A stretch of DNA of 64,000 nt, from positions 1-64,000 of the forward strand of contig VKHL01000070.1 of NCBI GenBank assembly GCA_015146655.1, given 5' to 3'. The translations under genes were made by a program, and so were the position numbers. The notes under the pieces are model-generated. The model had not been told where the DNA came from, searched no databases, and worked only from the letters and a program-made list of their open reading frames with translations. Positions 15,224 through 48,347 of the stretch are shown here, piece after piece; position 1 is the first letter of the stretch, and every line of letters begins with the position of its first letter. The DNA is from Ochromonas danica. Lineage: Eukaryota; Sar; Chrysophyceae; Chromulinales; Chromulinaceae.

Positions 15224-15490
15224 ATTCTCTATATCAAAAGTAGTACTTGTCGAAGTCGTCTATTCGATTGAAATACCTTGAATTCTCTATAATAAAAGTA
15301 ATACTTTCTCTCTATTGCACTGTGCTGTACTGTACTGTGTGAGGCAAAGTCAAAGTCGTCTATTCCATATAAATACCTTAAATTCTCGACCAAAAAGTAG
15401 TACTTGTCAAAGTCGTCTATTCGATTGAAATACCTTGATTACTCGATCAAGAAAGTAGCACTTCCTCTCTCTACTGTGTGCTATACTATA
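15185..15490. repeat. Decayed tandem copies of the C2 gene 3' end
   Basis: The final coding bases of the C2 gene (AAAGTCATCTATTCCATTGA, around 15196-15215) recur in altered form at about 15252-15280, 15350-15378 and 15410-15438. Each copy is followed by an AAATACCTTGAATTCTC-like tail and an AAAGTAGTACTT-like tail. The array continues up to the assembly gap. The copies lie past the stop codon and are not coding. Confidence 0.85.
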
Positions 15491-16191
15491 NNNNNNNNNN
15501 NNNNNNNNNNNNNNNNNNNNNNNNNNNNNNNNNNNNNNNNNNNNNNNNNNNNNNNNNNNNNNNNNNNNNNNNNNNNNNNNNNNNNNNNNNNNNNNNNNNN
15601 NNNNNNNNNNNNNNNNNNNNNNNNNNNNNNNNNNNNNNNNNNNNNNNNNNNNNNNNNNNNNNNNNNNNNNNNNNNNNNNNNNNNNNNNNNNNNNNNNNNN
15701 NNNNNNNNNNNNNNNNNNNNNNNNNNNNNNNNNNNNNNNNNNNNNNNNNNNNNNNNNNNNNNNNNNNNNNNNNNNNNNNNNNNNNNNNNNNNNNNNNNNN
15801 NNNNNNNNNNNNNNNNNNNNNNNNNNNNNNNNNNNNNNNNNNNNNNNNNNNNNNNNNNNNNNNNNNNNNNNNNNNNNNNNNNNNNNNNNNNNNNNNNNNN
15901 NNNNNNNNNNNNNNNNNNNNNNNNNNNNNNNNNNNNNNNNNNNNNNNNNNNNNNNNNNNNNNNNNNNNNNNNNNNNNNNNNNNNNNNNNNNNNNNNNNNN
16001 NNNNNNNNNNNNNNNNNNNNNNNNNNNNNNNNNNNNNNNNNNNNNNNNNNNNNNNNNNNNNNNNNNNNNNNNNNNNNNNNNNNNNNNNNNNNNNNNNNNN
16101 NNNNNNNNNNNNNNNNNNNNNNNNNNNNNNNNNNNNNNNNNNNNNNNNNNNNNNNNNNNNNNNNNNNNNNNNNNNNNNNNNNNNNNNNNNN
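15491..16191. other. Assembly gap (701 N)
   Basis: A run of N. Both flanks are repetitive (decayed C2-end copies on the left, TAGACTAGT units on the right), so the gap probably hides a repeat array. Apparent open frames through the Ns are artefacts. Confidence 0.98.
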
Positions 16192-16411: not shown

Positions 16412-18832
16412 TCACCACAGTGCTTTATAGACCATACATGAACAACAAGAATGGCAAGGATAAGAAGAATTCTGTACGAAGAGACGGTAGCTTTCCATAT
16501 AGTCACTATAGATCATACTTAAGGTAGCTCCTCCTCCTCCTCCACCACCACCACTACCACCACTACTACTACTACTACCAGCAGCCTCATTGGTAGTGGA
16601 GAGAGTGATCTGGTGGGAGTGGGCTTGCTTCTCATCAACCTTCTTCGCTAACCGTCGTCTTAACTTAAGATCTCCTCCTCCTCCTCCTCCTCCTTCACCA
16701 CTACCACTGGTAGCAACAACCTCTTGTGCTAATCGTTCAGAAAGAAAGTCGGGAGGAGGTTGTCCATTGATAGATCGAGCATACCAAGCCTTGAATGCTT
16801 CACCAGGACTATAGAGACTACGATCAATAGGATAGCTGGAGGAGGAGGAGGAGGTGTTGAGGTAGATAGAGGCTACAATATGCTTGCCATTCCAAGTGTC
16901 TTCATGACTATCTGAACAACTCACACAGTGATGAGCACAGGATTCAATGAAGACACCATGTCCAGCATCTATTATAGGCCATGACCCATTACCACCACTA
17001 CCACTACCTCGACCACTACCACTACTACTACTACTAGCAGTACTATTACTGCTGTAATGTGTGTAGTTACTATAGCGTGAGAGGAGGGTAGTAGTGGGGA
17101 AGGAGGCCTTCAGAAGACGTTCACTGAGTGTGTGTCCATAGGCTGTGATGGATTCCATGGATTCCATGGAACCATTTCTCTCTCCACCATAAATATGATT
17201 GATCTGCCAATGATCATATTGAGACTACATAACAACAATAACAACAATAAGGTCAGACAGAGAGAGGTTAGGTGAGGTTAGTCATGAGTTACCTGTACAG
17301 AGAAGAGAGGAGTGGTAATGAAAGGTAACACATTCTCTGCTAGAACACATCGACTACCACTACCACTACCACTACCACTACCACCATTACCGTAACTACC
17401 ACTACCGTAACTACTACCACTGTGACTACCACTATGATAGTGATGAAGACAATTCTGATTGATTCCAGCAGAGAGATTCATCATATCATAGATCTTCTCC
17501 ATAGCTAAAGGATAGTCTAATCTACCACTACTACTACTACTACCATTACCACCACCATTACTACTACTACCATTGCTACTACCATTGATATGAACTACTC
17601 CATCATCTTTACTCATATCAAACAGATGATAATTCTTCTCATTGACAATAAGAGAAGAAGTGTAACTTAAGAAGAATCCACTAACAGCTAGTCCACGAAC
17701 TAGTATAGAAGGATGTCCTTCTTGATGGATGATAGAGGTCATTTGGTCTATACCCAGGTAGACCCCTAAGGCCCCTGCTGAGCATCCCATTAGGACTACT
17801 TCTTTAGCATGACGCATACCTAGTGAGAGTAGAGAACGTATTGTCTCATCACGATTAACTTGTCCACGAAAATAGAGTTGACCTCCACCCTATATATACA
17901 CATACAATACACACAGTATACACACATAGTACATACACACACACACCATACACACACAAATAGTACATATATACACATACAATACACACAGTACACACAC
18001 ACCATGCACACACAGTACACATGCAGACACACAGTATACACACATACACCATACACATACATAGTACATATATACACAGACACAGACACACATACAGGAT
18101 TAGCATCAGGCCGGAAAATGTCTGATTTATCGGCAGATTTATCGGTCATTTTACGGGTGTCCCCCTTATTCTAAAATCAAAACTTACCGGAATAGGTAAA
18201 GCAGTATTTCCAGCATATGATCCACCATCACAATAGCGTACACGAATAATATTCCAATGAGACATCATTGGGTTAGCACTAGCTTGTGAACTTAAATAGT
18301 GTTTCATAGAGTCTTTAGAGAGACAAGTAGGGTAGTCCTTAGAAGACCCATAGACCCCTCGGGATCGTTGCTGACAGGAAAGAGGATCAAAGCACCATCC
18401 TCCTCCTTCAAAATGGACTAACCATTTGTCTTTGCTATTGTGACTACCTTTCTTCCAATAGAAGGCAGGTAGACTACCATCCATACAGCGTGCACCATGT
18501 CGACCTGAGAGAGTGTATTTGATAGCGTCATCTTCATTACAGAGGTGACTATCAGGGATAGTGTGGGAAGTAGAGGAGGAGGAGGTGGAGGAGGAGGAGG
18601 AGGAGGAGGAGTGGTCACTACCATGACCTAGTCGTATCTCACTAGGAGAAGATCGACTGCTATCACTAGAAGAAGAGGAAGAAGAAGAAGAGGGAGAGTG
18701 AAGAGGAGTAGAGAAGGGGTCAAAGATATACCAGAGGGTGAAGAGGAAGAGTAAGGTAGAGAGGATACCATAGGGTCCTACCCTCCTTCGAAGACAGGAA
18801 GAGTAGTCACGAGGATAGGCAGGATAGCTCAT
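16412..18832 (-). CDS. Membrane-anchored Notum/pectinacetylesterase-family hydrolase
   Basis: Minus strand, three exons: 18832-18188, 17889-17293, 17224-16412; 684 aa, all junctions phase 0. The family landmarks are LVHFEGGGWC, the YCDGGSYAGN loop, GQLYFRGQVN, the nucleophile elbow GCSAGALG (S252), QYDHWQI, and a late His block (IESCAHHC) that should carry the catalytic His. Family members remove acyl groups: pectin acetate in plants, Wnt palmitoleate for animal Notum. The substrate here is unknown. An N-terminal hydrophobic segment at about 19-38 after RRR suggests a type II membrane anchor. Ser/Gly/Thr runs interrupt the fold around 60-110, 320-400 and in the C-terminal third. The stop lies within CTGTGGTGAGATC, which could also be a splice donor, so a further 3' exon is possible. 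Intron 1 is a CA/TA microsatellite. Confidence 0.85.
17890..18090. repeat. ACACAT/ACACAG microsatellite in an intron
   Basis: Imperfect CA-rich repeat (ACACACAGTACACAT-type units) filling most of intron 1 of the minus-strand Notum-like gene. Confidence 0.85.
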
Positions 18833-19276
18833 GGAGAGATTGTTTTGTTATTGATTTAATATGATTTAATGAAGTCAGTCAGCCTGTTTGGTCAAAATAT
18901 TGGACTTGTTGTTGTTGAACTAACAGTTAACCAACAGTTACCTAACAGTTACCCAGATGGTTTGGAACTGGATCCAGGCCCAAGCCCGTGCCTGGGTGGC
19001 AGGAGATCCGTTGCACCGCAGGTGAAGTGCTTCGTCAGAGGCCAAGGCTTGCGAAGTCAGAGGGAAAGAACAATGACAACAATAGTACAGTAATAAAATA
19101 ACTAGCCAGAAGAGATACCGTGATTGATAACGTTGAATTATCATCCTAAAGAAATAGAAATAACTCAATAGTGGTGACAGACAGTATCAAAAACTGAAGT
19201 CATTCTTTAATAATAGTCATAAATAGCAGTAGACTACATCTTCATTCATCATAGGATAGAATAGAATAGGACAAGA
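18833..19276. other. Divergent intergenic region
   Basis: Lies between the start codons of the Notum-like gene (-) and the histidine kinase (+), so it carries both promoters. It holds a GC-richer island at about 18955-19075 with a CCAGGCCCAAGCCCGTGCCTGG inverted repeat core, but no tRNA fold or gene that I can support. Confidence 0.5.
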
Positions 19277-19719
19277 ATGAATACTCTACTGGAAAGACAA
19301 GCTCACATAGCCATTCCTACTGTTCTCATACTCTACATCATACTACAAGGTGGACTCTTCTACCTTCGCACTACCTCTTCTTCTTCTCCTCCTACCTCCT
19401 TCTCCTCCTTCTGTAGAGAAGAGCAGGTCATGCCTGTCTGGGTGCAAGTAGTTAACTTTGCTGCTGCTTCTTGTCTCTCTGCTAATGCTGCTTTACAACT
19501 TTACTTCTCTTCTCAATTATTCTTTCGTAAAACATCTGGTAAATATAGTTTAATGGTAATGCATCTCTCCATCTTCTGTGTACATGGTATATCAGCTAGT
19601 TCCATGTATTTAAGTCATTTCTCTTATCCTGGAGGATTCTGTAAAGATGCCCTTGGGTAAGTCTACCCTCTACTATTGTTGTTATTAGGAATGTAGTGAC
19701 ATGACATGTTAACGTCAAC

Positions 19720-19757
<38 letters not shown>

Positions 19758-22700
19758 ATATAGAGTTTATTCAAATGCATCACAATGGAGTGAATGGGTA
19801 ACAACTGTACCCTTCTTAGCTTATCTTTCTTGCTCTGGGATGAATAAAGAAAGGCTAGGTCTATTTGAATCTCTTGTCATGCTCTTTGCAGCATTAATGA
19901 TCTCTCTTGGCTTTATGTTGATTATCTCACCCAAGTTAGCCTGGATATGCTTAATCATCTCTATCTCTTGTGTGACAGCTATGAGAGTCTGTCTGAGATT
20001 CATCTCTTCTCAACATGAAGAGAACCTTCTCTCTCAATCTTCTTTCACTACTAATAACAACAATAATAATAACAAGTCAACCTCTTCCTTGTTGACTTCA
20101 GAGAAGATCTTTCAACTTCAAGTAGAATGGAGAAAACGAATGCTTAGTCGTCTGTTAATGATCTGTCCTTATTTCACTTTAGTCTATTTGCTCTCATTAG
20201 TAGGTCTTCTGAGTCCTCCTATGACAATCACAGGCTTTATTATGGGATCTATGCTAGGCAAATTCTTCTTCTCAGCGTCATTAGCAGAAGGATATCTTGA
20301 ATTACATGATGAAATTACCTCTTTAAGAAATGAAGCAGAAAAGTCAGATGAAGCCAGAAAGTCCTTTCTGAGATATGTTTTCCATGAGATAAGAGGACCA
20401 TTGAATACCTTATCTATGGGAATGCAAGTCTTTGAAGAAGCTTTTGCTTCTCATAAAGGAAAGAATGATAAAGAACCAAAGATTGATCGAGATGAACTAC
20501 GTCAACGTGGTCTTCATCGATCACCTTCTCCTTCATTACAAAGTGATAGTATGAAAGTGAATTATGATGAAAGTGAAAAAGCAGAACAAAAGATACCCTC
20601 CAAAAAACTGAAAAGATGGTTGAAACTTCAAGAAGAACTTGAAGCTATGGATGAATTCACTGACCATCCTCCTCTGCTGACGTCAGCAGAAGACTGTCCT
20701 TCTCCTTCTCTTCGTCGTCACAATCAAATCCCAACTGGGAAGACATCAAATCAAGAGCAAACAGAGCAGAAGAAAAGGAATAATGTTGAGAAGGAAGTAG
20801 TAGCAGTAGTAGGGAAGAAAGAAGAGAAGAGTCGTGGTCATAGTCATAGTCATAGTCATGGTGATAATAATGATGGACCACAACATAAAAAGGAAGGGGA
20901 AGATGATGATGATGATGATGCTATGGAAGTGAATAAGATTGATCATCAAATCTTTCAAGCCATGCAAAATGCAACTTCTACTTTAGTTGAGACTGTCAAT
21001 CAAGTCTTATCATTACATAAGATTCGTAGTGGTGAGGTTACATTAGCTGAACGAGTCTTTGATATCCAAGGTTGGTTACAAGATTCTATTGATGAAGCAT
21101 TACCTTTGTTGAAGGAAAAGGATGTGACATTGACATGGGGAGTTTCTCCAACAATTCCTCAACAACTTCTTGGTGATCCTGAACGTCTACAAACTGTATT
21201 AAATAGTGTTGTTTCTAATTTACGAGGATGTATGAAGAATAGTGGGAATATCCATATTGATCTTACTTCAACTCCTCCAAGTGACTTTGACAAGAGATGT
21301 GTTCAGAAGTTTTATCCTTTATCCATTTCTGATAAACTTGTTGGAAATGAAGAAGGCAAAGATGAAGAAGAGGAAGAAGAAGATAAAGAAAGTGAAGATC
21401 AGAACTGCTTTACTGCTTTATTTCGAGTGCTGAGGTTTGTAGTTGATGTCTTCTTCTCCAGTATGGTGGGCAAACGTACAAGGAATAAAGAGCCGCAAAA
21501 TCATTTGGCAACACTCTATCTCACTATTTCTTCATCTGAGTTTAAGCTTTCTTCTCAAGAATTGCATGACTTATGTGATCCTTCTCAGTTATTGAATTCA
21601 TCTTCCCTGCAGACTGGTCTAGGATTGGTTTTGGCTGGAGAATTAATTAGTATGCAAGAATATGGCAGTATGTTCTTCTTAGATAGTTCTTCGGAAGATA
21701 ATCGACAAGCTGTTTGCTTGAAGTTTGCATTACCTATTATACCACCTCCAGTCTTGGCTACCACTGCTGTTAGCACATTGAACCTTGATTCAAAGGGTAA
21801 TGTCCTTTCACTAAGCAATAGTGACGAAAGACTGATTGGCGTTTGTCAACAAACAAGGTGGCAGTCCATTTCTGTCTCAACTTTAGAATCATTATCAATA
21901 TCTCGCACCGATAGTCGATCTTATTCCAAGCCAATGCCAGAGGTTCGTACTATTCACGCGCCTTCAATTGTTGAAGATACTATAGATAAAAGCGCTGATA
22001 TTGGGAGAAAGACGTTTCCTTCATTTAGTAGCTTTGATAGTGCTACTTTGTCGAGCGTGACGACACTACCGGAGAACACAAGAAGTTGGAATGCGTTGGT
22101 TGTGGATGGTAAGGGTAGTCTATTGCAACGTGATGGGAGTGGCATTGATCTTAATACCTTTATTGTGAAAACATAGATACTCCCAGTAATAGCAAGATCC
22201 TGGCGGCTGTTTTGTCGAAGAAGGGTCATGTCTGTACTATTGCTAAGGATGGTGAACAAGCTGTTAATATTGTGAGGGAGAAAGGATTGGATGCATTTGA
22301 TATAATCTTCATGGACCATACCATGCCAATAATGGTGAGTATTCGCTCTTTGCTTAATTATTTGTTGCTTGTTATCACTCATAAACTATTTGATTGACAG
22401 ACTGGTGTTGAAGCTACTGAAGAACTTCGCAGAATGGGATTTAATCGGCCCATATTAGGAGTGACAGGCAACGTGTTGGATGATGACTTGTTGCTATTCC
22501 TTCAAGCTGGTGCTGACACCGTGCTTATGAAGCCTTTGCGCCTCAAGGAGATTGATATCGTCACTTCCTATTTTGAATCCTTTGGAATGGTGCATGATAA
22601 TACTAGAAGGTTTAAAATCGTGGGAAGCCAACTGTTCGTTTGTTCAGTTGCCGATATGGCCTTAGCTGAAAGTGGAGACTTATCTTCAACGTATTCTCCC

Positions 22701-22763
22701 CTTGTTCGCACCCATGCCAGTTTATGTGACTTGGCAACAGGTATCGCTTGTTCGGAAAACTGA
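19277..22763 (+). CDS. Hybrid histidine kinase with rhodopsin-like membrane domain
   Basis: Four exons: 19277-19656, 19764-22108, 22177-22334, 22401-22763; 1081 aa. Eight hydrophobic helices lie near 12-31, 52-77, 88-113, 135-151, 159-181, 185-206, 248-270 and 276-299. Helices 2-8 look like the seven of a microbial rhodopsin. The fourth reads QWSEWVTTVPFLAYL and aligns with bacteriorhodopsin helix C (E137 at the Asp85 position, W138, T141 and P143 matching W86, T89 and P91). The last has a central lysine (SMLGKFFFS, K293) where retinal would attach. A short coiled segment leads to the kinase H-box FHEIRGPL (H334), then a charged insert, an N-box (DPERLQTVLNSVVSNL) and a glycine-rich GLGLVLAGEL. 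The usual DxGxG G1 box is not evident (SSSEF instead). The C-terminal receiver is complete: VVDD, phospho-acceptor D955 in FMDHTMP, VTGN, MKP. The 68-bp intron between kinase and receiver explains the stop in the genomic frame. Retinal binding is inference. Confidence 0.8.
19723..19757. repeat. GT microsatellite in kinase intron 1
   Basis: GTGTGT run occupying the second half of the 107-bp intron 1, immediately before the acceptor at 19763. Confidence 0.9.
20673..20690. promoter_or_regulatory. 18-bp perfect palindrome around TGACGTCA
   Basis: TCTGCTGACGTCAGCAGA is its own reverse complement and contains a bZIP/CRE core (aureochromes of ochrophytes bind TGACGT). It lies in the coding exon of the kinase, so a regulatory role is uncertain. 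Confidence 0.35.
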
Positions 22764-23440
22764 TTTTTTGATAGTATTTCACTGTCTTTTGTGTAATGGT
22801 GGATTAGATATGGAGAATAGTTTATGTTGATTGATATGTATATATATTCTTATCCCTGTGATTTAGGAATTGCATAGTGTTTGGTGCATTTTTACTGTCT
22901 CGCTGTGATAAGATTATCCACGTCGCTGAGTTTCTCTGTGACGTCACCTTTAACTGGGATGAAAATTGCCTATATATTTGAAAGGTACTTCTCTATTGTC
23001 GTGCATCCTGTCAGCCCTGCTGAATAGGCGCTTATCTCTGCATACTGTCTCGACTGCCTTTGTTTCCACTTCTTCAGCAACTGATAACATGTATTCAGGA
23101 ATGAAGTCGAAGTGTTTTGACTCAGTGTTATTATGTCACGATTCTTCTGCTTATTACATATAGAATTAATAGTATATGTAAAGATATGTACTGTAGTTTT
23201 GCTAGTTGCACTGATAAAGCTGTAATTCTTAGTTATTCTTCAATGGTTCAACTGCTATTCTTGCTATTACACAGTCTGAGGAGAGTGTGGGCGGTTTCCC
23301 GCGCATAGCAAAAATCATGGAGCCGCGCAGACCGCTGTGCTGCCCAGTTTGGAGCAAGAGAAGAGGTGATTGTTGCACAAGTACTACCTGTAGTCTACTA
23401 TACACACTTGATGTTTTTGTAATTTATTATATGATTCTCC
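22764..23440. other. Intergenic region with a CRE-like site
   Basis: Between the kinase stop and the EF-hand start. The palindromic bZIP core TGACGTCA occurs at 22939-22946, about 500 bp before the EF-hand ATG. No coding frame or RNA gene is supported. The open frames at 22966 and 23287 lack homology and splice support. Confidence 0.5.
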
Positions 23441-26947: not shown

Positions 26948-28318
26948 TTAAGCTTCTATTTCACACTTCTTCTCTTTATCTTCCTTATCTCCAACTTCTC
27001 CTGCTGCTTCTGCTTCTTTGTGTTCCTCATTGGTGGCTTCTTCTTCACCTTTCTCGTCTCTCTGTCTCTTCCGCTCTGACTTTACAGGCTTGCAATTACC
27101 TCGATGATCTTCAATCAATCGCACAATAGGCACTTGAGCACCGTTTTGCAAAGCATCAATAACCCAAGTAGGAATGTCATCTCCTTGATCAAGGAAGTAT
27201 CCAATGAAGAAATCTCTCAAATAAGCATGATAAACGTCAGTACCATCCATAATCGCTTGACGCATGGAGCGCATTAAACGCATCATATAGGCTAGGTTAT
27301 GCTTTGTTATCAATTGAGCTGCTAAAGGACTACCTTCTTTGAGCATGACGTGAAGAGAAGAACGAGTATAATGACGACATGTGGAGCATGGGCATTGTTC
27401 ATCAATGGGGACATATTTGTCTTCATGTTCCTTCGCTTTCAACCGTATTGTTCCAGTTGGAATAAATGCAACACCAAAACGTGCTGTACGAGTAGGATAG
27501 ACACAATCAAACATATCCACTCCCAGAGCAACACAGACAACAAGATCCACAGGATAGCCTACCCCCATGAGATAGCGTGGCTTTTGAGCAGGTAAGCGAA
27601 TAGCATTATGAGACACTACATTCCAGAAGCTTTCCTTGTCTTCACCTCCAGCTAATCCACCAATGGCATAGCCAGGAAGGTTTCTTGCAATCATGGCCTC
27701 TAAGCATTGTTCTCTCATGCCACCTGGACTAACATCTAACCCACCTTGAATAATAGCAAAGAGATTCTGTTTATCAGGTTTACGATGAGCAGCAATGCAT
27801 CGATCTAACCAACGAATCGATCTTTCCATAGCTTCTTGGAATCGACTTTGATCATCATGAATGCTACTGACCACGTCATCCAGTTGCATCATGATATCCG
27901 CACCAATCTCATTCTGACAGTGAATACTCTCTTCAGGGGTAAGCATCATCTCTCGTCCATCCACAGGAGACTGGAAGCGAACACCTTCTTCGGTAATCTT
28001 AGCCAATTTTAACAAGGAAACCATTTGAAAGCCTCCACTATCAGTCAGCAGGTTCTTCGACCAGTTCATGAACCCATGCAAGCCACCAAATTCGTCAATT
28101 AGCGAGGTGCCTGGCTGACTGGCAAGATGATAGGTATTGCCTAGGATAATCTCCGGATCAACATCATCAGCATGAAGCTGTTGAGGGGTGAGTCCCTTGA
28201 TAGTGCCTTTGGTACCAACAGGCATGAAGACAGGGGTGCGGACAGGTCCATGAGGGAGATGGAGGGTTCCAGCACGTGCTCTTCCAGAAGTAGCATGAAC
28301 CTCGAATCGAAGAGCCAT
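26948..28318 (-). CDS. QTRT1: Queuine tRNA-ribosyltransferase catalytic subunit
   Basis: Single exon, 456 aa. This enzyme swaps guanine 34 for queuine in tRNAs with GUN anticodons, normally as a heterodimer with QTRT2. The TIM-barrel family landmarks are all present: FMPVGTKGTIKGL, ILGNTYHL, LLTDSGGFQMVSL (with the Asp that contacts the base), IIQGG, YAIGGLAGGE and MGVGYPVDL. The catalytic nucleophile is the Asp of MFDCVYPTRTARFG (D271). The zinc site reads CPCSTCRHYTRSSLH with three Cys and the His in the expected spacing. The C-terminal 55 residues are a Lys/Glu-rich tail, an addition to the usual length of about 400. No targeting signal is seen, which suggests a cytosolic or outer mitochondrial location as in animals. 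QTRT2 is not in this window. Confidence 0.96.
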   Translation of the reverse strand: MALRFEVHATSGRARAGTLHLPHGPVRTPVFMPVGTKGTIKGLTPQQLHADDVDPEIILGNTYHLASQPGTSLIDEFGGLHGFMNWSKNLLTDSGGFQMVSLLKLAKITEEGVRFQSPVDGREMMLTPEESIHCQNEIGADIMMQLDDVVSSIHDDQSRFQEAMERSIRWLDRCIAAHRKPDKQNLFAIIQGGLDVSPGGMREQCLEAMIARNLPGYAIGGLAGGEDKESFWNVVSHNAIRLPAQKPRYLMGVGYPVDLVVCVALGVDMFDCVYPTRTARFGVAFIPTGTIRLKAKEHEDKYVPIDEQCPCSTCRHYTRSSLHVMLKEGSPLAAQLITKHNLAYMMRLMRSMRQAIMDGTDVYHAYLRDFFIGYFLDQGDDIPTWVIDALQNGAQVPIVRLIEDHRGNCKPVKSERKRQRDEKGEEEATNEEHKEAEAAGEVGDKEDKEKKCEIEA

Positions 28319-28430
28319 GATAGATAAACTTCTGTAATACTCTACCAGAGAATAATGAGAAAGCCACTCAAATGACTGGGTCTACATTGCCTAATCATTT
28401 TTATTTAAATGCTATTCATCGCATTGCATC

Positions 28431-40924: not shown

Positions 40925-41405
40925 GATATCAATCTAAAACTATTTATTTATTTCAATCTGATAGACAAACAGAGCATGATGGCGGTTATCACTGCACCAG
41001 GGTTTAAGGAAATACACAATTTATCCATGGAAAGCAGTCCGGCACTTCCATGGAATGGCCTTGCAGGTGAAAGATACCGGAAAGTGAAAAAACGAGGTTT
41101 TAAAGATGTTTATGAGATAACTTCTCCCTCTCTCTCTCGCTCATGTCAGTGACAGTGACAGTGACAGTGACAGTGGACAGTCAAAGTGACAGTGACATAG
41201 TGAGAGTGACAGAGTGAGTGAGTGAGTGAGTCATTATCTATCATCATCAACCTGCAGGACTATTCATCTACTATATACTATTAGCTCTCTATTGCTGGCT
41301 AGAAGAAGAAGAAGAAGGTCCTTTCTAATTGATCTCTTTATTAATTGACGACATATTGTTATTATTATTGATATTATTGATATTATTGTATTATTAGCTA
41401 TTATT
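40925..41405. repeat. Divergent spacer with CAGTGA repeat
   Basis: Between LC8 (-) and NAD kinase (+). A CAGTGA hexamer repeat with GAGT units spans about 41145-41233, followed by a TATTGATATTAT repeat near 41357-41390. The promoters of both genes must lie here. Confidence 0.7.
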
Positions 41406-43564
41406 ATGATGTGGTGGTGGCCTCTCTGCCTCTTACTAGTCTTAGTCCCTTGCCACCAACCCTTCCTTTTGCACCCCTTAGGTAGTGGTGGTAGTGGTAG
41501 TAGTAGTGGGTGGAGGTGTAGTAGTAGGAGGTGGTCCCCCTCTCCCATCACTACCTCCTGCTGGCCATGGCCTTCTAGGACTCTGCTGCACATGCGTCAC
41601 TCATCCTTCCTACAAGGAGTGAATGGATCAGCTATCTTGGATGACAGCACCTCCTCCTCCTCCTCCACCTCCTCTTCTAATGGTAGTGGTAGCAGTAGTA
41701 GTGGTAGTCTAGGGGGAGGGGGTCACTTCCACTCCCACCCCTCTCCTCCTCCTACTGCTACTACCACCAACTCTATGAGTCAACAATCATCACCTAGTAC
41801 GTCAGATGTATACAATACAGCAGCAGCAGCAGCAGCAGGAGGAGGAGGAGGAGGAGGAGCAGAAGAAGAGGCTATCCCTTTCACACTGAAAGACCATATC
41901 TTCAGTCAAGCTACTCAGACACACTATTCTACTACTGACTTCTTCACTGGTACAGAGATTAGCTATAGTGGTCCTTCTTCTCCTAGTTTACTGATTCAAT
42001 GGCATTCTACCCCACAGAAGGTCTTCCTTCTCTCTAAAGAAGATCCTGATCTACTTCCTGTAGTATTAGAAGCATTACAATATCTTATTGATATTAAACA
42101 ATTAGAAGTCGTGGTAGAAGAAAAGCTATTAAAGCATCTAATTCATTATGATGACTTTATTCAATGGTTAGTTAACTCAAGGAAGAAGTCAGCACAGACC
42201 AATACACCTCCTGGTTTGAGGATTAGGAGAGAAGAAGGTAGTAGTGGTAGTGGTAGTAGTGGTGGACCAGGAGAGGTAGACTACCGTAGTGATGAAGAGG
42301 TGTTAAAAGAGGTAGGAGAGTTGAATATAGCAGGGAATCATCTTGTCTATAACTCAGCAGCAGATGTGGTAATTGATAGAGAGAGTGTAGCTAAAGTAAA
42401 TCAAATGTTAGTCAATCATCTGACTAATCATAGTCAACATGGATCAGTTCAACAAAAGCAACTCATTGAACACGCTAAGGGGGAGGATAAGGAGGAGGAG
42501 GAGGAGGGTAAGAGTAAGGTAGATGTAGATCTACAAGGTAAAGAAGGTTATGGTGAGTCAGCATATGATAATCTGTTTGGTACAGGATCAACAGATCAAC
42601 GTGAAGCTTTCTATGCTTCATTAGATATTGATAATGATGGTATGCAACGTGAAGATAATTCTGATTTAGTTGGTTCATTAGAAAGTGATGAAGAACCACC
42701 ATTAATCTCTATTAAAGATATACATCCTCGTATTTCAGTCTTTACAGAAGAGATGAGTGGATTAGATTTAATTCTAACATTTGGTGGAGATGGTCTATTA
42801 CTCTATGTGAATACATTATTTCAAACACGTGCTATTCCACCTGTTATGTGTTTTGATTTTGGTTCACTTGGGTTTCTTTCACCTTTCCAATATGCTAACT
42901 TTCAACAAGAAGTTGATGAAGTATTAAATGGTACTGCATTATTAACATTAAGAATGAGATTACAATGTACCATTTATCGATTTGATCAACCACGTGGTGT
43001 TTATCATGTATTAAATGAAGCTGTTATTGATCGTGGTCCTTCACCTTATCTTAGTGTTTTAGATCTCTCTTGTGATAGTCAATATTTGACTACTTTACAA
43101 GGTGATGGTGTCATCTTCTCTACTCCTACAGGCTCTACAGCATATTCATTAGCAGCAGGAGGATCGATTATCTATCCTGCTGTACCTGCTATCCTTCTCA
43201 CTCCAATATGTGCACATAGTCTATCTTTTAGACCTATGTTACTACCTGATAGTGCGGTGATGATGTGTGAGATTCCACGAGAATGTCGAGCAAGTGGATG
43301 GGTTTCATTTGATGGGAAATATCGTCAAGAACTTCATCGAGGGAATCGGTTAGAAGTGCGCTTGTCTCCTTTCCCCATGCCTACCATCAACAAGTAAGCC
43401 CCCTCCTTTCCCTCCCGTTGCTTCTTCTGATATTGATTGATGATGATGTTTTCCGTTTGTTTTCGTGCTTGTAAATGATCAGGAGGACGTTTACAGGGGA
43501 CTGGTTTGATGCACTACGAGCTAGCTTCATGTTTAATATGAGACCTCGCCAGAAGCCACGCTAA
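41406..43564 (+). CDS. NADK: NAD kinase with signal-peptide-like leader
   Basis: Two exons: 41406-43393 and 43483-43564; 689 aa, much longer than the 300-450 of many NAD kinases. The enzyme phosphorylates NAD to NADP. The catalytic domain is in the C-terminal 240 residues: LILTFGGDGLLLYVN (GGDG near residue 460), the LGFLSPF turn, LNEAVIDRG, then GDGVIFSTPTGSTAYSLAAG and a conserved SFDGK. The N-terminus has a hydrophobic leader (MMWWWPLCLLLVLVPCHQPF), so ER or plastid routing is possible. Residues 30-170 are Ser/Gly/Ala low complexity, and a long acidic middle region precedes the catalytic part. The 24 C-terminal residues, after the phase 2 intron, resemble NADK tails (RTFTGDWFDALRASF). Alternative ATG one codon downstream. 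Confidence 0.93.
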
Positions 43565-45643: not shown

Positions 45644-46638
45644 TTACAAATCTGCTGCTGCTCGACGAACTGCATTAGCCCAGGCCTCCAGACCTTTCGA
45701 TCCTTCCTCTGGGCTCACCACACGGCGATATCCAGCTGCTTCAGCTGCACGCTGACTAGTGGGACCAATCACTACTACAGGGGTATCATAGTTGCTTCCT
45801 GCAGTGATTCCTAGCTTCTCAGCCCATATCTCCACAGTGGAAGGAGAGCCAAAAGTGACAATGTCCACCAGCTGTGCTTTGCTGACGTCACAGCTTGACC
45901 AAGAAGCAGCAACGGTAGTGTAAGTATCTAAGCGTGTTACCTAGTCATATATCCATTTCAAAAGCAGTGTTCTATATATTTCAATGCAGAGCCAATCCTC
46001 TCCCTCACCTGGAATCCTCGCTCTTCTAACCCACTTGCCAAAGTATCCGCAGCCAAAGCAGAAGATGGATATAACAGCCTCTTGCCTGTGAACAAGCAGG
46101 ACAGAAATATCATCAGAGGGGCTATTAGTTGGAGAAGCCAAGGTATCAGTCTCTTACCGATCTCCAATGGCAGCTCTTTGGCCAGCACCTTGCCCAGTGC
46201 CTCGGATGGCTCAAATACTGGCACGATGCCTTCCTTCTTCAAAGGCTGAGAAGTTCCTTTACCTACTGTAATCACTTTAACGGGTGGTCGACCATGTTGA
46301 TTCCACTCCTTTAGGAAGACTTTGACTGCCTGCGGGGAGGTCAAGATGACGGCGTCATGGGCCGCCAACTCGGGGCCAATCCTGGATGCTTCAGGTGTCG
46401 TTTCAAATGTCAGACATGGTAACTCTACACATTCGAATTCTGGTAGCAGAGCAGCAAGTTTGTCATTGGCTCCTGCCTCACGAGTGAGGGCCACTTTGAT
46501 CTTCTGTGCAAATAGTCGACTTGAAGGATGATAGTTTGTGCCCTTTCTACTTGAGGTGAGAAGACTTTTGAAGCCTGAGTTCACCTCTAGGAGAGCTAAA
46601 GTGACGAAGAAAAGGAAGAGAATTGAGTTCAACATCAT
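45644..46638 (-). CDS. UROS: Uroporphyrinogen-III synthase, predicted plastid
   Basis: Minus strand, three exons: 46638-46158, 46085-46009, 45940-45644; 284 aa. The enzyme cyclises hydroxymethylbilane to uroporphyrinogen III, the branch point for haem and chlorophyll. This low-identity family is recognised by its pattern: KVALTREAGANDKLAALLPE, VELPCLTFE, HDAVILTSPQAVKVFL, ITVGKGTSQPL, LLYPSSALAADTLASGLEERGF, RLDTYTT, IVTFGSPSTVEIW, VVVIGPTSQRAAEAAGY. The N-terminus has a signal peptide (ILFLFFVTLALLEVNSG) with Phe next and a Ser/Arg/Lys stretch, the bipartite plastid leader of red-lineage algae. Plastid location matches tetrapyrrole synthesis in photosynthetic ochrophytes. Splicing of exons 2 and 3 restores the FQ|VTRLDTY family join. 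A second ATG at 46635 is equally possible. Confidence 0.9.
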
Positions 46639-46868
46639 CCCTATTCAAGATCTATCCCTTCATCGAGATTCATCATCAAACAAGAGGGAAAGTCGAGATT
46701 GCATGAAAATAGTAAAACAAAGGTTATAACTCGTATACCATTGATGGGGGAATTGTGGCACTTAAACTCAAAATTTATGAAGTTTTACTCACACATTCTG
46801 GTTGGCCAGGGGCCAGTCCAAATTCCTGGAAGCTTTCATCACTTGTTGAGATCACTCGCCTAGTGAAG

Positions 46869-48347
46869 ATGAACGGATTCTATTGGCTGGTTCTATTATC
46901 TTTAAGTTATGTCTATGCTATTGACAACTTAAAAGAAGCAGAACAACATATTCGAGATCATTTAAAAAATTATGCTTCTGTGTCAACAAGTTCGATGTGT
47001 AGTGAGAATACTTGCTGCAGTATCTCCTCTACAGAATCATGTCCTATCTCTTCTATGACTAAAGATAGCAGTACTTTAGTCTTACCTGGTGGAGAGACTC
47101 GCTGTATCTTCAGTTATTCCACTCCTTTCGCATTTCAGGTATTTCGGAATCCTGTCGTCTTCGTATCTTTTCAGTATTTTTTTTTCTTGTCTTTCATCGT
47201 CACTTTCCTTTTTTTTCAGTTTGAAGTGAAGTTAACCTTCTCTGTCTCTCTGTCTCATGTGTCATTCATGTTGTCTTAGGTCATTCCTGGTGATACTGAC
47301 AAGCTCTTGTTCTACTTCCAAGGAGGTGGAGCTTGTTGGGATGAATACAGTACCAAAGCTGGTCTCTGTACCACAGATGTTGCTCCACAATCTCCTGTGG
47401 GTGTCTTTGATCGTAGCAATAGCGAGAACCGCTTCAAAGACTTTACTATTGTCCATGTGATCTATTGCTCTGGAGACGTTCATGGTGGTAATACTATTCG
47501 CTCTTACAATGATGCCCAGGGTGTTCCAGTGCAACAGAAGGGATTAGCCAATGCTCAGTCTGCCTTGGATTGGGTGAATCAGGAAGTGAAGGCTGGCCAC
47601 TTGGCCTCTACATTCTCTGACGTGGTGGTCATGGGCTGCTCTGCTGGATCCATTGGTGCGCAGCTCTGGGCACAGCAGGTCTTGAACTCGCTCTCTTATA
47701 CCCGCGCCGCTGTTGTACCTGATTCCTATGCCGGAGTCTTCCCTCCTGGCTCAGAAGGACCCCTCATTTATGACTTTGGCCTCTGCACTGCTTCCTTCTT
47801 GTCTGATGACTTACGAGCAAAATGTCTCAATCAAACGTTGGAAGTGACGGATGTGAATTTGGCCTCACAGTCTGCATTAAAGGCCATTCCTTTTGTCTTC
47901 TTGCAGTCTAAAGTGGATATAGTCCAGCAATCATTCTATATCTCTGTAGGTGTGACAATGAACAGCTCTTCGAAAACAATCACACCAACGGAATTTTATA
48001 ATGATGTCAATACCATCTTTGGTGGATACAATGCCGCATCGAAGAACTTCCTCACCTATCTGATCGATGGAGATCATCATTGCTTCACTGACCAGGCTAT
48101 CTATTACACAACTGATCCAATCTCTGATGTAGACAATGGAAAACAATCAAGCTCTGCTCTCTTGACTGACTATGTTGATAACCTACCCTTACAGGAAAAT
48201 CAGTCCCTGGACACTGTCTGCGATGGCAGTGTCAAGGTTTTCTCTGACAGCTTTGGTAGCAATGGAAAGAAGTCATTGAGAGCTGGTGCTGATAATACCT
48301 ACTGCTCTTCTCAGCTTGTGCCGAAAACCTTCACGGAGCATTACTAA
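46869..48347 (+). CDS. Secreted pectinacetylesterase-family hydrolase
   Basis: Two exons: 46869-47138 and 47280-48347; 445 aa. The start at 46869 opens a signal peptide (MNGFYWLVLLSLSYVYA). The family landmarks are LLFYFQGGGACWDE, the IYCSGDVHGGN loop, and the nucleophile elbow VVMGCSAGSIGAQ (S211). DGDHHC is the likely catalytic His, and many Cys suggest a disulphide-bonded secreted protein. The N-terminal 70 residues are Cys/Ser-rich. The YCSGDVHGGN variant differs from the YCDG form of the Notum-like gene at 16412-18832, so the two are distant paralogues rather than a recent duplication. The likely action is deacylation of a wall or extracellular polysaccharide; the substrate cannot be told. 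Confidence 0.9.

Follow-up and report, generated by a model that had tools for sequence, protein, structure and literature searches.

The window, by which we mean the whole stretch of 64,000 nucleotides analysed here (Ochromonas danica assembly GCA_015146655.1, contig VKHL01000070.1, positions 1 to 64,000 of the forward strand), contains a four-exon gene whose spliced frame encodes 1081 amino acids (Table 1). An earlier note, made from the DNA letters alone, had described it as a candidate histidine-kinase rhodopsin of an ochrophyte. The frame is open across three introns, all of them GT-AG, and the ochrophyte source is borne out by a EukProt protein (P0003) of O. danica, a chrysophyte ochrophyte, which matches residues 287-1081 at 795/795 identity. 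The EukProt annotation has two separate models for the gene (scaffold633 AAC.32 and AAC.33, our P0003 and P0014), and therefore the fusion and the membrane domain are hidden there. The four-exon model is supported by a relative that has the corresponding exon-1 and exon-2 frames (P0011 and P0001, both on 3593-base contigs), and by a second gene copy, C146, that has its first intron at the same place. We estimate a probability of roughly 0.8 that the gene encodes a retinal photoreceptor, and consider it equally probable that the product combines an eight-helix, enzyme-type rhodopsin with HisKA, a degenerate ATP-binding domain and a receiver.

Table 1. Layout of the rhodopsin-like gene, in window positions; bacteriorhodopsin numbering in brackets.
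Feature	Position	Strand	Remarks
Exon 1	19277..19656	+	extra N-terminal helix (TM0), helices A and B; residues 1-126 plus two bases of codon 127
Exon 2	19764..22108	+	helices C-G, HisKA, degenerate ATP-binding region, start of receiver
Exon 3	22177..22334	+	middle of receiver domain
Exon 4	22401..22763	+	end of receiver, C-terminal tail, stop
TM0	19304..19369	+	residues ~10-31; from hydropathy and alignments of the C168 and P0013 models to rhodopsin phosphodiesterase
Helix C	19777..19839	+	residues ~132-152; Q134 (R82), E137 (D85), W138 (W86), T141 (T89), P143 (P91), L148 (D96)
E137, predicted single counterion	19792..19794	+	Glu in 11/11 sequences
Helix G	20224..20301	+	residues ~281-306
S289 (D212)	20248..20250	+	Ser in 10/10 sequences
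K293, predicted retinal Schiff-base lysine	20260..20262	+	Lys in 10/10 sequences
HisKA match	20356..20442	+	residues 325-353; phospho-acceptor H334 kept; E 3e-4, under the Pfam cut-off
Region aligning with the C168 ATP-binding domain	21064..21663	+	residues ~561-760; without Pfam HATPase match; GLG kept, G1 Asp lost
Receiver domain	22096..22553	+	residues 905-1012, spliced; E 3e-19

Protein searches covered about 5.8 billion proteins and returned 4, 1 and 8 matches in three runs, and genome searches covered one O. danica assembly (31.2 Mb, 337 contigs), in which two further copies were found, C146 and C168. The family comprises two clades, the first made up of the window gene, the C146 copy (91% identical), P0001, P0002 and P0013, and the second of C168, P0007-P0010 and P0012; identity between the clades is 12-19% in the membrane domain. 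The linker ahead of HisKA closes with LRYVFHE in 9/9 aligned rows. W135, E137, W138 and P143 are invariant in the 11 sequences covering each position, and T141 is kept in 10 of 11, with Cys in P0013; these residues correspond to Y83, D85, W86, P91 and T89 of bacteriorhodopsin, respectively. Likewise, Y268, S289, K293 and F296, which correspond to W189, D212, K216 and F219, are identical in all 10 sequences covering each, and so the lysine, whose conservation among homologues was a test set in advance, was found throughout. E137, W138, T141, P143, S289, K293 and Q134 lie where the earlier note had placed them. At the R82 position clade 1 has Gln and clade 2 has either Leu or Met, and the D96 position holds Leu or Ile across the family.

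The C146 copy (C146:47050 onwards) aligns with window 19094-23177 at 85.6% identity over 4,151 columns, and its membrane part differs from that of the window gene with a dN of 0.045 and a dS of 0.141. Judged from sequence, the membrane part is under purifying selection, and C146 represents a dispersed duplication of the window gene. That C146 might be an allele was dropped: the similarity is confined to window 19094-23177, and the flanks fetched hold no other match to the window. Beyond this copy, at L006 6274-7000, further kinase- and receiver-like frames were seen by eye. P0002, used as a query in the protein search, matched only itself, and a genome search with just the membrane part of C168 gave no match at E ≤ 10 other than the query; because of the latter result, the linker/HisKA match, the profile, the motif alignment and the fold are what tie C168 to the window gene. 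A weak genome match at C8:112436 (E 0.04) was discarded as a frame that by eye is without rhodopsin features. A giant-virus origin was also set aside, a viral_contigs scan having given 34 pattern matches and tblastn no relative.

The first 320 residues gave no credible match in a Pfam scan. Searched against the PDB (177,635 distinct sequences, E ≤ 10), residues 1-320 matched a single chain, xanthorhodopsin, at E 0.024. This match puts EW..T.P on DW..T.P, and thereby recovers independently the ungapped C-helix register on bacteriorhodopsin that had been proposed by eye. A five-sequence family profile found archaerhodopsin-1 as its best and only match (E 0.067), and P0013 had as its best match a cation channelrhodopsin (E 0.094), lysine aligned to lysine. 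None of the three is significant by itself. In profile-profile comparison by hhalign, the family (12 sequences, of which the program used 10) scored 34.9 against 80 prokaryotic rhodopsins (P 3.5e-4), the alignment covering helices F-G with lysine on lysine; all 200 locally shuffled decoys scored lower (mean 14.1, sd 2.6, maximum 22.4), as did the reversed profile (12.7). P0008, by comparison with the PDB, retrieved kinases only, matched via HisKA. A hypergeometric estimate of 1.5e-5, for six of eight invariant membrane positions falling on 23 pocket positions, was given no weight, since the motifs being counted had also steered the alignment.

The membrane domain very probably has the rhodopsin fold. 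AlphaFold2 models of C168 and P0013, which over the membrane part are 12% and 26% identical to the window domain and 18% to each other, both show this fold with eight helices, and they agree with each other, with the strands of the B-C loop present and the lysine in register. Among the matches listed by Foldseek, the top one for both models is the rhodopsin phosphodiesterase (Rh-PDE) of Salpingoeca rosetta, and the structural alignment starts at model residue 6 in each, so that it takes in TM0; no non-rhodopsin family occurs among the best 50 of each of four lists. The conserved lysine superposes on the retinal lysine K205 of sensory rhodopsin II in 10/10 and 14/14 rows; the structure test set beforehand, run on these relatives, thus did not refute a rhodopsin. 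Fold and lysine position thus have the support of prediction, on relatives of the window protein. The one extra N-terminal helix plus seven-helix set recognised earlier agrees with these models and with the hydropathy of the window protein, in which the segment at residues ~10-31 is strong and several later helices are only moderately hydrophobic. In the predicted topology, TM0 would have its N-terminus inside. Cys is found in 11/11 sequences at C46 and C122 (window ~19414 and 19640), in the TM0-helix A interval and the B-C loop; both lie on the outer side in this topology, and a disulphide between them is plausible.

Several results weigh against a retinal-binding rhodopsin. The sequence-only E-values are weak (0.024, 0.067 and 0.094), and P0002 retrieved from the PDB an antibody chain only (E 0.74) and no rhodopsin. 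The probability assigned by hhalign itself was 37%, over just 46 columns, and 8% in global alignment. PF01036, the profile check that the earlier note had proposed, matched neither the window protein nor the 12 family members, and it found nothing in the whole assembly, although the three rhodopsin-bearing control genomes, all positive, were prokaryotic and intronless, and a split eukaryotic gene could escape. (A proteorhodopsin query of the genome, run without a positive control, also found nothing.) The models are of the relatives C168 and P0013, they were built on shallow alignments of 9 and 12 rows, and the rhodopsin fold is very familiar to AlphaFold2. With bacteriorhodopsin K216 as the yardstick, the lysine fell on 282 in 12/22 rows and was off by one (283) in 10/22. 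Finally, R82 is missing in 11/11 sequences, D212 in 10/10 (Ser) and W182 in 10/10 (Phe, Cys or Thr).

The absent Pfam matches, weak E-values and shallow alignments would suit some other eight-helix sensor fold in which EW..T.P and S..(G/A)K arose by chance, AlphaFold2 having defaulted to a familiar seven-helix bundle. We regard this as very improbable: the profile score exceeds every decoy with lysine on lysine, two separately modelled members agree down to the B-C loop strands and the lysine, and the weak matches drawn by three different queries are rhodopsins throughout, each in register. Somewhat less improbable, and still quite unlikely, is an opsin-like receptor that keeps the rhodopsin fold, has lost light sensing and feeds the two-component domains in response to another ligand or none. 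The fold by itself says nothing of function, the kinase of the window copy is eroded, and the three substitutions just listed would agree with such a loss. However, the lysine (10/10), the Glu (11/11), the Trp at W86 (11/11) and the Tyr at W189 (10/10) are chromophore-pocket positions kept at identities down to 12%, and the membrane part is under purifying selection. Moreover, opsin relatives without pigment usually lack the lysine.

The retinal photoreceptor is therefore the reading that we favour, and its pigment would be unusual. The replacements at R82 and D212 are as the earlier note had stated, but Ser at D212 has a precedent in heliorhodopsin, where the pair E107 (D85) and S237 (D212) equals E137 and S289 here and the Glu is described as the main counterion (PMC6951262, PMC10238734). 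Heliorhodopsin shows that a pigment can form without D212. The C-terminus of heliorhodopsin is reported as extracellular (PMC6951262), whereas the kinase tail here must be inside, and membership of that family was set aside on topology. PF18761 did not match the window protein and was not among the 19 Pfam families matched by the 12 members, and a genome search with it, run without a positive control, was empty. Heliorhodopsin has Arg at the R82 position, which is absent in the family described here. Bacteriorhodopsin and the sensory rhodopsins share with it the fold, the position of the Schiff-base lysine and the EW..T.P motif, at ~8-16% identity over the superposed part, and differ from it at D96 (Leu/Ile), R82 (Gln/Leu/Met) and D212 (Ser). 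Given the residues at R82 and D96, a proton pump is unlikely, and the window domain likely acts as a sensor.

As a hybrid kinase, the window protein keeps part of what was first claimed for it. H334 and the receiver are present, but the ATP-binding domain is degenerate: Pfam HATPase has no match in residues ~545-800 at E ≤ 10, and the G1 Asp is missing, although the GLG motif is kept and one N-box Asn can be aligned. P0001 is eroded likewise, its G1 Asp missing, and P0002 is also divergent, yet keeps a KD..GLS stretch. The paralogue C168 (C168:36091-32913, loci L005 and L007; 933 amino acids when spliced) has instead HisKA (6.8e-10), HATPase_c (1.8e-27) and a receiver (3.4e-17); by domain content it is a complete hybrid kinase with rhodopsin, HisKA, HATPase and receiver in one chain, and a stronger candidate than the window gene for a functional histidine-kinase rhodopsin. 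The window protein itself is, in its domains, a rhodopsin-two-component fusion rather than a proven histidine kinase, and given the state of its ATP-binding domain it may not be active alone. A self-sufficient light-gated kinase like the green-algal ones, with an ATP-binding domain that is just divergent, would account for H334, GLG, the N-box Asn and the strong receiver; set against the HATPase match of C168 and the loss of the G1 Asp in both the window copy and P0001, we find it doubtful. Most likely, the window protein depends on another kinase.

We propose the following mechanism. The chain would run from TM0 through the seven-helix microbial-rhodopsin domain, a signalling helix, the HisKA dimerisation helix pair and the degenerate ATP-binding domain to the receiver. 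All-trans retinal would attach to K293, E137 serving as the single counterion, and isomerisation of the retinal by light would shift helices F and G. Helix G is predicted to continue directly into the dimerisation helices, whose state would be altered, and the signal would exit via phosphorylation or dephosphorylation of H334 and then the receiver. With an eroded ATP-binding domain of its own, the window protein probably needs a partner kinase (e.g. the C168 paralogue), or may act as a phosphatase or scaffold.

Green-algal histidine-kinase rhodopsins are described as uniting rhodopsin, HisKA, HATPase and receiver in one chain (PMC7693036, PMC12558739). Chlamydomonas COP5/HKR1, Ostreococcus Ot-HKR and the COP6-type cyclase opsins share rhodopsin, HisKA and receiver with the family here, and HATPase with C168. 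In contrast to them, the host here is an ochrophyte, the ATP-binding domain of the window copy is degenerate, and no cyclase domain turned up when the window copy and C168 were scanned with Pfam. Nothing returned by the three protein searches bore the label of a rhodopsin or histidine-kinase rhodopsin, although few of the matches were named. The Rh-PDE of Salpingoeca rosetta has eight helices with TM0, as here, but its output is a phosphodiesterase and not a two-component system. Its acid pair is given as Glu164 and Asp292, with Asp292 as the counterion (PMC7644710); this second acid is Ser in the present family.

Elsewhere in the window, frames resembling other genes were recognised by eye: pectinacetylesterase/Notum (18146-18847, reverse strand, and 47280-48347, forward), tRNA-guanine transglycosylase (26948-28381, reverse), NAD kinase (41349-43397, forward) and uroporphyrinogen-III synthase (45958-46644, reverse). 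A run of N lies at ~15490-16190.

With regard to retinal supply, carotenoid cleavage oxygenases (PF03055) are present at four loci of the assembly (C15, C61, C24 and C5). A 1995 title by Walne et al. in the reference list of PMC10298208 reports that the flagellar swelling of O. danica contains retinal, and other reference titles record that this species is phototactic; Table 1 of PMC2781859 lists flavins or pterins as the basis of phototaxis in ochrophyte algae. Our literature search, mostly outside subscription journals, found no paper on a rhodopsin-histidine-kinase from any ochrophyte, chrysophytes included. Rather speculatively, and at odds that we consider low, this chrysophyte enzyme-rhodopsin lineage could be the retinal photoreceptor of the flagellar swelling, in which catalytically dead receptors (the window gene and C146) would team up with a receptor whose kinase is live (C168), and a lone Glu counterion would work with neither the usual Arg nor a second Asp. 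If the window gene does encode a retinal photoreceptor, its family would give the reported retinal of O. danica a protein, rhodopsin-two-component fusions would extend past the green algae, and a pigment with an unusual, minimal counterion would be added to those known. Such fusions can escape PF01036, and hence would be undercounted in surveys based on it.
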